Shown here piece by piece: positions 29,777-32,944 of a DNA stretch of 64,000 bases. The stretch is from positions 1 to 64,000 of the forward strand of contig JAITWI010000055.1 of the NCBI GenBank assembly GCA_031285345.1. Reading direction: 5' to 3'. Below the pieces are notes generated by a model. That model did no database searches. It was not told where the DNA came from and worked only from the letters and a program-made list of their open reading frames with translations. Made by a program: the position numbers and the translations under genes. This stretch comes from Alistipes sp. Its GTDB lineage: Bacteria > Bacteroidota > Bacteroidia > Bacteroidales > Rikenellaceae. The first letter of the stretch is position 1. Each line of letters opens with the position of its first letter.

Positions 29777-31072
29777 ATGAACTGGCAACAACAATTCGAT
29801 GGTAAGATCATCACCGCCGCCGAGGCGGTAGGCAAGATAGAGGACGGCGTCACGGTCGTCTGTTCGCACGCGGCCACCAATCCGCAGGTGATAATGCGCG
29901 AACTTGTGGCGCAAAAGGAGCGTTACACCAACCTTCGCTTATTTCACGTCATGCCGTTGGGCTACGGGGAGTACGCGTCGATCGAAAATTCGGCCCACTT
30001 CCGCCACGTGACCACCTTCGCCGGCGGAACGACCCGCAAGGCGGTGGCCGAGGGCAGGGCCGACTTCATACCCTGCTTTTTTAAGAACGTGCCGGCGCTG
30101 TTGGGCAACGAGATTCCGGTGGATATCGCCGTCATAAACGTATCGACTCCCGACGAGGATGGCTATTGCAGCTTCTCGCTGTCGAGCGACTACACGGTGA
30201 GGGCTACCGAGCTGGCAAAAGTTGTGATCGCGCAGGTGAACGACGCCCTGCCGCGAGTGGGCGGCCGCGACAACTCGGTGCACATCTCGCGCTTCGACTG
30301 GATAGTTCCATGCTCCGACCCCGCTCCAGAACTTCCGACCGGCGGCGCGCCCTCGGAGTTAGAGGCCTCCATCGCCCGCCACTGCGCCTCGCTGGTGAAC
30401 GACGGAGACACGCTGCAATTGGGCATCGGCGCCATTCCGGACGCGGTGCTTGGCTTTTTGACGGATAAAAAACACCTGGGGCTGCACACCGAAATTCTGT
30501 GCGACGGGGCGGTGGATATGATCAAGAGCGGCGTGATAGACGGCTCGCGCAAGACGCTCCACCCGGGCAAGGTGGTGGTGACGTTTCTCGCCGGAACGCC
30601 CAAGCTCTACGACTTCGTGGCCGACAACCCCGACATCGTGATGTTGCCGGTGGACTACGTGAACGACCCGGCCACCATAGCAAAGCACGACAACATGGTG
30701 TCGATCAACTCGTGCGTCGAGGTCGATCTGACGGGTCAGGTCAACTCTGAGACCATCGGCGGCCGGCAGTTCAGCGGCCTTGGGGGTCAGGTCGACTTCG
30801 TGCGAGGGGCGCAGATGTCGCGCGGCGGCAAATCTATCATCACCATGTCGTCCACCGCTTCGGGCGGCAAGATTTCGCGCATAGTGCCTCAACTCTCGCC
30901 CGGCAACGTGGTGACCACTTCGAGGGGCGACGTGGACTACATAGTGACGGAGTACGGCATCGCCAAACTCAAAGGCAAAACTTTGCGAGAACGAGCACAG
31001 GCTTTGATCGCCATCGCCCACCCCGATTTCCGCGCGGGGCTCGAAGAGGAGTTCGGCCGGCGGTTTTATTAA
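29777..31072 (+). CDS. Acetyl-CoA hydrolase/4-hydroxybutyrate CoA-transferase family protein
   Basis: 431 residues, the normal size. Motifs include VVCSHAATNPQVIMREL near 28, GGTTRKAVAEGRADFIPCFF near 85, LQLGIGAIPDAVLGFL near 215, and MVSINSCVEVDLTGQVNSE then GGRQFSGLGGQVDFVRGAQ near 310-345. The EVDLTGQVNSE segment carries the family's catalytic glutamate. Members move CoA between acetate and 4-hydroxybutyrate, butyrate or succinate, and take part in amino-acid and fatty-acid fermentation. The substrate cannot be fixed from sequence; the Pta-AckA pair elsewhere in the window gives another acetate outlet. Confidence 0.92.
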   Translation: MNWQQQFDGKIITAAEAVGKIEDGVTVVCSHAATNPQVIMRELVAQKERYTNLRLFHVMPLGYGEYASIENSAHFRHVTTFAGGTTRKAVAEGRADFIPCFFKNVPALLGNEIPVDIAVINVSTPDEDGYCSFSLSSDYTVRATELAKVVIAQVNDALPRVGGRDNSVHISRFDWIVPCSDPAPELPTGGAPSELEASIARHCASLVNDGDTLQLGIGAIPDAVLGFLTDKKHLGLHTEILCDGAVDMIKSGVIDGSRKTLHPGKVVVTFLAGTPKLYDFVADNPDIVMLPVDYVNDPATIAKHDNMVSINSCVEVDLTGQVNSETIGGRQFSGLGGQVDFVRGAQMSRGGKSIITMSSTASGGKISRIVPQLSPGNVVTTSRGDVDYIVTEYGIAKLKGKTLRERAQALIAIAHPDFRAGLEEEFGRRFY

Positions 31073-31423
31073 ATAGTCGACGGGTTCCGTGAAAAATCCC
31101 CCGTCTTTGGCTTTGCCTTCCTCCTTCGCGCCTCGGCAATTCGTGCAGGGCACGATTGCACTCGGCTTGTCGTCGGTTGCGTGGGTCGTCGCGGAGCCGA
31201 AGCTAAAATGGCTCTCAAATTTCGGCGCACCGGAATTTGTACCATTTTAGATGAGGTGGGAGCAGGCCGGCGGAAACACGGGCCAACTATTTCACTGACC
31301 GTAGCCGGCAAGTCGTTGCGCAAGCAACGGCGCCGAAAAGCGGAGGGAAGTAATTTTTGCTTCTTTTTGTTGGTCAAAAAGAAATTAAGAGGAATTTATT
31401 ACAACTATATCTCAAAAACAATT
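31073..31423. repeat. Hairpin-rich non-coding cassette (351 bp)
   Basis: No credible gene lies here. Four hairpins follow one another: 31137-31159 (CAATTCGTGC against GCACGATTG, one bulge); 31203-31250 (CTAAAATGG with CCATTTTAG enclosing CAAATTTCGG with CCGGAATTTG around a CGCA loop); 31315-31328 (GTTGC, loop GCAA, GCAAC); and 31361-31383 (TTCTTTTTG, loop TTGGT, CAAAAAGAA). Bases 31328-31353 match 24 of 26 bases of the end of yidC (56714-56739). The arrangement suggests a copy of a genome-wide structured repeat rather than ordinary leader sequence. Confidence 0.6.
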
Positions 31424-32944
31424 ATGTTAAGGAAGATTAGAATCGCAGTCGCGTGGGTGGTTTTTGCCGCCGCGCTGCTGTTGGTGCTCGACCTGACGGG
31501 GGCGTTGCACGGTTGGTTGGGCTGGGTGGCTCGCGTGCAGCTCGTCCCTGCGATTTTGGCGGGCAACTTGATCGCACTGGTCGTGGTGGGGGTGCTGACG
31601 TTGCTGTTCGGCCGCGTCTACTGCTCTGTTTTGTGTCCGCTGGGCATCGCGCAGGACGGCATCTCGTGGCTCTCGGGGCGCCGCAAGGGCAAGAAAGCGC
31701 GGTTCAGCTACACCAAACCCATGTCGTGGCTGCGCTACGGATTGTTGACGATATTCGTCGTTGCCCTCGTGGTCGGCATCGGCGCCGTGGTGTCGCTGTT
31801 GGATCCGTGGGGAATCTTCGGGCGCACGGCGTCGAACCTGTTGGCTCCGTTGTGGGGCTGGGGTAACAACGCGCTGGCGTGGGTGGCCGAACGGGCCGAC
31901 AGCTACGCCTTCCACTCGCGGGAGGTGTGGGTGCGCAGTTGGATCGTGTTAAGCGTGACGGCGGCGACTTTTGCGCTGATAGCGGTGTTGGCGTGGCGGC
32001 GGGGACGCACCTGGTGCACGAAAGTTTGCCCGGTGGGGACGCTGCTCGGCTTGCTGTCGCTGGCGGCTCCTTTCCGCATCCGGTTCGACAAGTCGGCGTG
32101 CACCCACTGCGGCGTGTGCGAAAAGAAGTGCAAGAGCGGTTGCATCGACTCCAAAACCCAAACCATCGACCGCACCCGTTGCGTGGTGTGCTTCGACTGC
32201 CTGGACTCGTGCAACTTCGGGGCGATAAAATATGGTGCGTGTGGTTCGAAACGCGGCGGCTCGGCGAAGGAGGCCCCAGATGGCGGCGCACCCGAACGCA
32301 CGTCCGACAAAAAAGGAGTGTCGAGGCGCAACTTCCTCGCCATTGCCGGCGCCATTGCCGTGGCGAACACCGTAAAGGCTCAGCAGTTGAAGGTGGACGG
32401 CGGCCTGGCCGAGATTGAGGACAAAAAACGCCCCGTGCGCAAAAACCCCATCACACCCCCGGGCTCTAAGGACGCGCGCAACATGAAGCAGCATTGCGTG
32501 GCGTGTCAGTTGTGCGTAACCGCATGCCCCAACGGCGTTTTGGTGTCCTCGTCGCGTCTGGCCACGTTGATGCAGCCCGAGATGACCTTCGAGCGCGGAT
32601 ACTGCCGCCCCGAGTGCGTCGAATGCAGCGAAGTGTGCCCGGCGGGAGCGATAGAGCGCATCTCCCCTGCCGACAAATCCGCCATCTCTGTGGGCAACGC
32701 AAATTACATAGCCGACAACTGCGTTGTGGGTCGCGACAACCTACCCTGCACCGCCTGCGAGCGCCACTGCCCCACCAAGGCCATCACCCTCGTGCCGCGC
32801 GATCCGGCCGACCCGAAATCGCTGAAAATTCCGGCGATAGACAACACCCTGTGCATCGGCTGCGGCGCGTGCGAGTACCACTGCCCCGCAAGGCCGTTCG
32901 CCGCTATCTATGTAGAAGGAAACGTAACCCACCATTCGCTTTAA
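31424..32944 (+). CDS. NapH/NapG-like fused membrane polyferredoxin
   Basis: 506 residues from the ATG at 31424, where the first membrane helix begins. The N-terminal NapH-like part has four to five membrane helices and two cysteine motifs (YCSVLCPLG near 68, WCTKVCPVG near 200). Next come two [4Fe-4S] motifs (CTHCGVCEKKC, CVVCFDCLDSC). A twin-arginine-like signal, VSRRNFLAIAGAIAVANT, begins at residue 299, in the middle of the chain. After it are four more Fe-S motifs (CVACQLCVTACP, CVECSEVCP, CTACERHCP, CIGCGACEYHCP). It looks like NapH joined to a NapG-type ferredoxin, passing electrons from quinols to an exported acceptor. The stop overlaps the aldo/keto reductase ATG, so the two likely work together. 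Confidence 0.88.
   Translation: MLRKIRIAVAWVVFAAALLLVLDLTGALHGWLGWVARVQLVPAILAGNLIALVVVGVLTLLFGRVYCSVLCPLGIAQDGISWLSGRRKGKKARFSYTKPMSWLRYGLLTIFVVALVVGIGAVVSLLDPWGIFGRTASNLLAPLWGWGNNALAWVAERADSYAFHSREVWVRSWIVLSVTAATFALIAVLAWRRGRTWCTKVCPVGTLLGLLSLAAPFRIRFDKSACTHCGVCEKKCKSGCIDSKTQTIDRTRCVVCFDCLDSCNFGAIKYGACGSKRGGSAKEAPDGGAPERTSDKKGVSRRNFLAIAGAIAVANTVKAQQLKVDGGLAEIEDKKRPVRKNPITPPGSKDARNMKQHCVACQLCVTACPNGVLVSSSRLATLMQPEMTFERGYCRPECVECSEVCPAGAIERISPADKSAISVGNANYIADNCVVGRDNLPCTACERHCPTKAITLVPRDPADPKSLKIPAIDNTLCIGCGACEYHCPARPFAAIYVEGNVTHHSL

Follow-up and report, generated by a model that had tools for sequence, protein, structure and literature searches.

The intergenic region that separates an acetyl-CoA hydrolase/transferase gene from a 4Fe-4S polyferredoxin gene in the window (the whole stretch of 64,000 nucleotides of Alistipes sp. 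DNA that was analysed) is very probably a nest of non-autonomous mobile repeats, of which the base element, here called BC, appears suited to function in single-stranded form, most likely as RNA in the direction of the flanking genes. The features of the region are collected in Table 1. The source genome (G000) is a draft of 1.72 Mb in 82 contigs that is 81% complete; below, the other G numbers denote relatives (e.g. G008) and L numbers denote loci.

Table 1. Features of the intergenic region and its flanking genes (positions in the window)
Feature	Position	Strand	Description and basis
Acetyl-CoA hydrolase/transferase gene	29777-31072		upstream flank of the gap
Non-coding gap	31073-31423		351 bp, between the CoA-transferase and polyferredoxin genes
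BC, window copy	31098-31384 (31098-31108, 31179-31286, 31352-31384)	+	covariance model R1 and BLASTN
BC outer stem	31100-31282	+	CCCGT 31100-31104 pairs with ACGGG 31278-31282 and the stem extends further inward; A interrupts its 5' strand; alignment
Insert A	31109-31176	-	68-nt structured repeat, CCGACGACAAG...GGAGGAA-GGCAAAGCC; own-genome copies, congener copies, alignment
48-nt hairpin	31203-31250	+	two nested stems, CTAAAATGG/CCATTTTAG and CAAATTTCGG/CCGGAATTTG; energy and covariation between copies
Predicted 3' pseudoknot module	31283-31384	+	split by D; S1/loop covariation
Predicted module parts	S1 31283-31286; U-run 31354-31359; S2 hairpin 31360-31384	+	S1 is CCAA; S2 loop TTGG (31370-31373) pairs with S1
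Insert D	31287-31351	+	65 nt, CGTTGC/GCAACG hairpin; absent from other BC copies
4Fe-4S polyferredoxin gene	31424-32944		downstream flank of the gap

The intergenic region is a mosaic

The original prediction had placed a gap of 351 bp without a protein-like frame between these two genes, and this was borne out. The single sizeable ORF within it, an antisense frame of 102 aa (31069-31377), gave no Pfam match, and a protein-coding reading was rejected. The plus-strand frame is also open across the 3' half of the gap (31181-32944); despite this, the polyferredoxin start in the congeners is a conserved ATG that adjoins the gene.

The gap is a mosaic, in which a BC copy is interrupted by two inserts, A and D. 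When the 351 bp were used as a BLASTN query against the own genome, different parts of the query matched at different places: part q105-214 at six other sites, part q39-109 at 11 other sites with E < 1e-3 and at 2 weaker ones, and part q280-324 beside several of the q105-214 copies, where q214 and q280 are directly adjacent. As these other copies run on without a break at the places of A and D, the window copy carries two extra pieces. In total, eight dispersed BC copies were recovered in the own genome by covariance model and BLASTN, the window copy included. The idea of one cassette of four hairpins was therefore rejected, considering that none of the other BC copies contains A or D and that A is found alone elsewhere; the hairpins proposed for that cassette are real, and belong to one element and two inserts.

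Folded as RNA, the whole gap reached -132.3 kcal/mol against -108.2 +- 5.1 for dinucleotide shuffles (z = -4.8; 0/100 as good). The difference is mostly caused by the 48-nt hairpin with two nested stems, which was found as predicted (31198-31255: z = -4.5; 0/200 shuffles as good) and whose stems covary, with CTAACG/CGTTAG and CAAAAG/CTTTTG at the same place in other copies. Taken singly, the remaining hairpins scored z = -2.0 (31280-31350; 8/200 shuffles), -1.4 (31350-31395; 23/200), -0.3 (31111-31180; 79/200) and +0.6 (31096-31143; 144/200), and we accept them as real because of their conservation between copies and not because of their energy. Several of these single hairpins are thus no better than shuffles, as would be expected of chance hairpins within a G+C-rich spacer, but the z-score of the whole region and the eight dispersed, covarying copies make that reading practically untenable; the copies by themselves already refute it.

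Two short inserts landed inside BC, of which at least A is also a mobile repeat. Insert A has 11 other copies in the own genome (E < 1e-3) and further copies in congeners, and splits a conserved CTTTGC of BC in the window copy, where it is flanked on the minus strand by AA (31177-31178 and 31107-31108). An alignment was made of 26 copies and the window copy; the boundaries of A were evaluated for 21 of these loci and the window, counting only rows that matched the regular expression. Among these 21 rows (19 distinct ones, as L008 and L009 overlap) 18 have AA directly before the insert, and in 20 the insert closes with a short tail hairpin and a subsequent AA, against 8% for shuffled flanks. 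The wobble pairs (6 G-U and 0 A-C on the minus strand; 2 G-U and 3 A-C on the other) point to the minus strand of the window as the folding strand of A. In G008 an A copy lies within the loop of a BC-like element (L123), so A invaded this type of element at least twice. Three of the A copies (L009, L010 and L024) are located between or beside tRNA genes. Insert D lies between AA 31285-31286 and AA 31352-31353, and no family was found for it: its sole other match in the own genome (56686-56739, query q225-281; E 4e-5, 79% over 54 bases) is at the 3' end of a gene and may represent a gene piece or chance. The AA flanks of A and D are indistinguishable from the AA ends of the inserts themselves.

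Covariation and strand bias of the base element

Without the inserts, BC measures around 150 nt and consists of a long imperfect hairpin closed by CCCGU/ACGGG, followed by a U-rich hairpin. Its layout in the loci read is CCCGTCTTTGC...GCGAACACGGG, then (C)CAG-TTTTTG-CTTCTTTTTG-CTGGYC-AAAAAGAAG; at L003 and L006 the 3' module is instead GTGAG-TTTTTTTG-GTTACTTTTTTTG-CTCATC-AAAAAAAGTAAC. From the alignment of the seven non-window copies (115 columns) RNAalifold derived 41 pairs, 13 of which show double changes. Of the 287 cells in these pairs, 96.5% were paired (88.1 +- 1.1 in shuffles), and the covariation score of 0.334 (0.170 +- 0.018 in shuffles) was reached by 0/500 shuffles and exceeded every slid version by a wide margin; further pair types were no more numerous in the alignment than in the control (86/500 shuffles). 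Since the structure was derived from the same aligned sequences, independent support from matches outside the training set matters. The covariance model R1, trained without the window copy, scored that copy at 101.9 bits (E 1.8e-21). In the genus search it also recovered two G008 copies, with E-values of 1e-8 and 4e-8, and none of the other 9 congeners gave a match at E <= 0.01. A third G008 copy was obtained in a separate later search. The family-wide covariance-model result of 1/250 genomes is a lower bound, because the stricter filters used there lost the known G008 copies, and a DNA search with a BC copy in 150 genomes returned the own-genome copies plus two weak short matches (3/150 genomes). 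A structured RNA, one of the possibilities raised beforehand, is thereby supported in outline, and the opposite case of a single copy without conserved structure is contradicted by the eight copies, the two or more in a congener and the strong covariation.

The same 287 cells comprise 257 Watson-Crick pairs, 20 G-U pairs, 0 A-C pairs and 10 purine-purine mismatches. The occurrence of 20 G-U pairs next to 0 A-C pairs implies that the fold is under selection on the plus strand of the window. Given that G.T pairs are tolerated in single-stranded DNA too, this bias is no proof of RNA; we consider a putative RNA-level role for BC likely.

Sites without the element and gene context

In G003, G009 and G004 the CoA-transferase and polyferredoxin genes are direct neighbours and the element is missing; the aligned parts are 19, 63 and 80 nt apart, respectively. 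In G001 and G008 another gene lies between the two and model R1 found no BC there (the loci of G002 and G010 do not show both genes, and G005-G007 gave no match). A second site, L011, lies between genes with Pfam domains PF01192 and PF02441, which we take to be Rpb6-like and coaBC-like. In G001, G002, G003, G004, G005, G006 and G010 the two genes of this pair lie close to each other and the element is missing (G007 and G009 gave no match). The dispersed copies and these orthologous sites without element, in three and seven congeners, respectively, identify BC as a non-autonomous mobile repeat, in agreement with the mobility that had been suggested. G008 holds an element of another type (E) in the very gap that contains BC in the own genome, which means that this gap was entered by two different members. 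At L011, the coaBC-like gene downstream of BC meets a stop after codon 180, which may reflect a frameshift, a split gene or an assembly error. Gaps of G008 (the upstream part of L280, L263 and L068) hold further dispersed repeats, of the GTCATTGCGAGC...GAAGCAATCC and GTCATCCCGA...GAGGGATCTACC kind. A BLASTN search with one BC copy returned no described plasmids or phages that carry it.

The positions within the own genome could also be explained by a cis-acting 3'-UTR or operon element, which ends or stabilises the upstream transcript and was kept and spread because it is useful in place. By reading, all nine sites (8 BC and L025) lie at most ~45 nt behind the stop of a gene that points towards the element; the automatic gene caller agreed on the orientation at 8/9 and mis-called L011, where the Rpb6-like stop precedes the BC copy by 23 nt and the next start follows after 16 nt. 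Moreover, most copies have a strong stem followed by a U-run within 4-6 nt, and the Rpb6-like/coaBC gap is occupied by two element types in G000 and G008. Nevertheless, no intrinsic terminator (G+C-rich stem with a T-run within 2 nt) was detected in 30900-31600, where shuffles gave a mean of 1.2; in the window copy S1 lies between the stem and the T-run. In other genomes (G036, G008 and more) the orientation relative to the neighbouring genes is mixed: within the wide module set described below the upstream gene points towards the module in 35/63 cases and the downstream gene away from it in 42/63, a count that omits 65 further matches at a contig edge, inside an ORF or without a neighbour. 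Considering also that congeners lack the element at the same sites and that the genes flanking BC have no function in common, we regard a cis-acting role as the origin of the distribution as rather unlikely, at about one chance in a handful, and favour the mobile repeat.

The 3' module and its differing 5' domains

In H-type pseudoknots with a U.A-U triple helix, a stem, a U-rich loop and a U/A stem follow one another. The 3' module of BC has the order of an H-type pseudoknot, in that a hairpin loop is complementary to the bases just 5' of a U-run. In the own-genome type-1 modules that fit the exact pattern the loop pairs with these bases in 6/6 cases, with four different stem sequences. The type-1 pattern was found in 11/268 genomes of the family and the type-2 pattern in 7/268, the latter against 0 for a reversed-pattern control; together they occur in 14/268. 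Copy numbers ran up to 48 (G055) and 26 (G007) for type 1, and up to 28 (G008) and 16 (G036) for type 2. A scan of a collection of named genomes gave at least 119 stretches with the module (80 stretches among the matches listed), in Bacteroidota, Oscillospiraceae and others, and the type-2 pattern also occurs in 6 viral stretches, which are included in the following count. Of 99 distinct loops, 56 had >=4 Watson-Crick pairs to the 10 bases before the U-run, compared with 16.9 +- 3.6 (maximum 30; 500 shuffles) when loops were exchanged and with 19 when the bases after the module were used instead. An earlier count, with redundant copies and G-U pairs allowed, was 92/130 vs 60.7 +- 4.7. In a check set chosen afterwards, 18 copies from the congeners G006 and G007, 15 reached >=4 Watson-Crick pairs (16 with G-U). 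The pairing between S1 and loop fails in L298, L303 and about two fifths of the 99 loops, and of one copy each from G005 and G048 one showed a weak S1 pairing and one failed. The covarying second stem between the loop and the upstream bases argues for a predicted H-type pseudoknot. The lengths of U-run and A-U stem match as well (rho 0.63, while the pattern itself forces both to be >=5), and a U.A-U triple helix is possibly present.

The loops occur in both orientations (e.g. CTTCAG/CTGAAG, and the type-1 modules of G036), as if a palindromic hairpin loop flips, by which the S1 pairing would be broken; the loop of L303 is the reverse complement of that of L300. At L101-L117 and L120 further hairpins lie downstream of the module: in the genus of G036 often a small one with a variable stem and a GGCATGA-like loop, and in G008 a TCGC...GCGA-like hairpin. 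Oscillospiraceae records (L140, L144, L157, L173 and L207) hold several modules in each genome, and the frames beside them are repeated too. Apart from this one cluster the neighbours in the wide scan are unrelated, and a gene family that travels with the module was rejected.

Within one genus, the same kind of 3' module occurs behind three 5' domains: that of BC, the L025/E type (present in G000 and G008; 18 G-U vs 1 A-C cells) and the type of G006 and G007, a very long hairpin. In another genus (G036) it stands behind yet another hairpin, which is near-identical in 14 copies and has 58 G-U vs 4 A-C cells, with 0 double changes as the copies are too alike. Tentatively, and with odds somewhat against it, these observations might be extended to a cross-phylum family of mobile, RNA-structured repeats with a constant 3' U-run pseudoknot and interchangeable 5' hairpins, a bacterial counterpart of SINEs, whose 3' end would be recognised for stability or copying. 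Within such a family, the loop of the S2 hairpin would close S1, and the U-run of the module would roughly equal in length the A-U stem opposite to it and would probably form a U.A-U triple helix with that stem.

The 3' module that stays constant while the 5' domains of a single genus differ, together with the RNA-like strand bias, would also fit a SINE-like retroelement, with BC copied via RNA by a reverse transcriptase that acts in trans and recognises the 3' pseudoknot. Searches for mobilising enzymes, run on mostly incomplete drafts (the own genome being 81% complete), gave no RVT_1 match in G000 or G008, and retrotransposition by a reverse transcriptase of its own was rejected. Elsewhere, two RVT_1 genes were found in G036 and one in G062, and those of G036 are about 10 kb or more away from the nearest modules among the matches listed. 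We therefore consider this mode of copying improbable.

Comparison to known repeats and RNAs

REP elements are palindromes, one end of which bears a conserved tag, GTAG or CGTC. They are described as 20-40 bp long (PMC3733652). BC (~150 nt) and A (68 nt), which have ends other than GTAG/CGTC, fall outside this description. BC resembles the REP/RAYT system in its short, intergenic, dispersed and strand-specific hairpins and, like BIMEs, forms a mosaic of several units, but it has a long domain and a predicted 3' pseudoknot. A repeat that moves as single-stranded DNA by a Y1 transposase, of the REP/IS200 type, would account for the strand-specific hairpins, the intergenic positions and the lack of a clear target duplication. 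However, Y1_Tnp (PF01797) had no match in the own genome and six relatives (G001, G003, G008, G009, G036 and G062), most of these genomes being incomplete drafts, while control genomes matched. The REP/RAYT candidate was rejected on this ground, the REP type that had been proposed was not substantiated, and transfer as single-stranded DNA by such an enzyme is in our opinion very unlikely.

The classical MITE type, the other class that had been put forward, is not supported either. BC is small, non-autonomous, multi-copy and intergenic like bacterial MITEs, and the ends of its hairpin domain resemble imperfect terminal inverted repeats: the sequences given above for these ends pair with each other, with the constant 3' module outside them. 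Unlike in MITEs, the inverted repeats covary with G-U pairs on one strand, no parent element was found and no target duplication was seen for BC in the loci read. Copies and sites were counted as had been recommended, and A and D show AA at most.

The small RNA sRNA-Xcc1 is integron-borne and multi-copy, and its layout prompted a comparison. BC is likewise mobile, multi-copy and structured, but Rfam gave nothing for eight module loci even with the E threshold raised to 10, and no integron cassette context was seen. Rfam families, including sRNA-Xcc1, were rejected, as no covariance model of Rfam 15 matched over the element or the module; pseudoknots of type III antitoxins were a further candidate considered. 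The GTTAGAC in some BC copies resembles what we take to be the core of an integron attC site; this candidate was abandoned, since the window copy carries CTAAAA/TTTTAG at that position. The SAM-V riboswitch, described as an H-type pseudoknot with a U.A-U triple helix (PMC6061858), shares with the module the order S1, U-rich loop, U/A stem, S1', S2'. Unlike SAM-V, the module is a dispersed repeat without a known ligand or regulated gene class, and its triple helix is putative. In the literature covered, mostly that outside subscription, we found no description of BC, which may have been described earlier under another name.

Proposed history and implications

The following course of events best accounts for the above. 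BC would have spread by copying to sites between genes, with selection acting on its folded single strand. In this fold, a long hairpin domain precedes the 3' module, where the U/A hairpin has a loop that pairs back to the bases ahead of a U-run of about equal length. In this lineage BC would have moved into the gap behind the CoA-transferase gene, after which A and D inserted at AA dinucleotides inside it. Transcripts of BC are expected to fold as modelled, including the pseudoknot in vivo, and to act as RNA rather than as single-stranded DNA, although this expectation comes from comparative data. Being the constant part, the 3' pseudoknot is the best candidate for recognition by a cellular or mobilising factor; it may protect or tag the RNA, or serve a mobilising enzyme, and mobility would rely on an enzyme from elsewhere in the cell. 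As D splits the pseudoknot and A the outer stem, the window copy itself is probably an inactive relic whose only effect is extra structure in the mRNA between the genes.

The usual explanation of interspersed repeats in bacteria is that of DNA hairpins moved by transposases. In the BC family a single-strand, RNA-like constraint is visible: the shape of the element, its knot-like end included, is maintained by matching mutations, and the 3' module is common to unrelated 5' domains and to several phyla, with dozens of modules in some genomes (48 of one type in G055). The region also calls for caution, in that chains of hairpins may be nested insertions and not one RNA. With this family, it becomes directly testable whether mobilisation or retention of a repeat in bacteria takes place as RNA.
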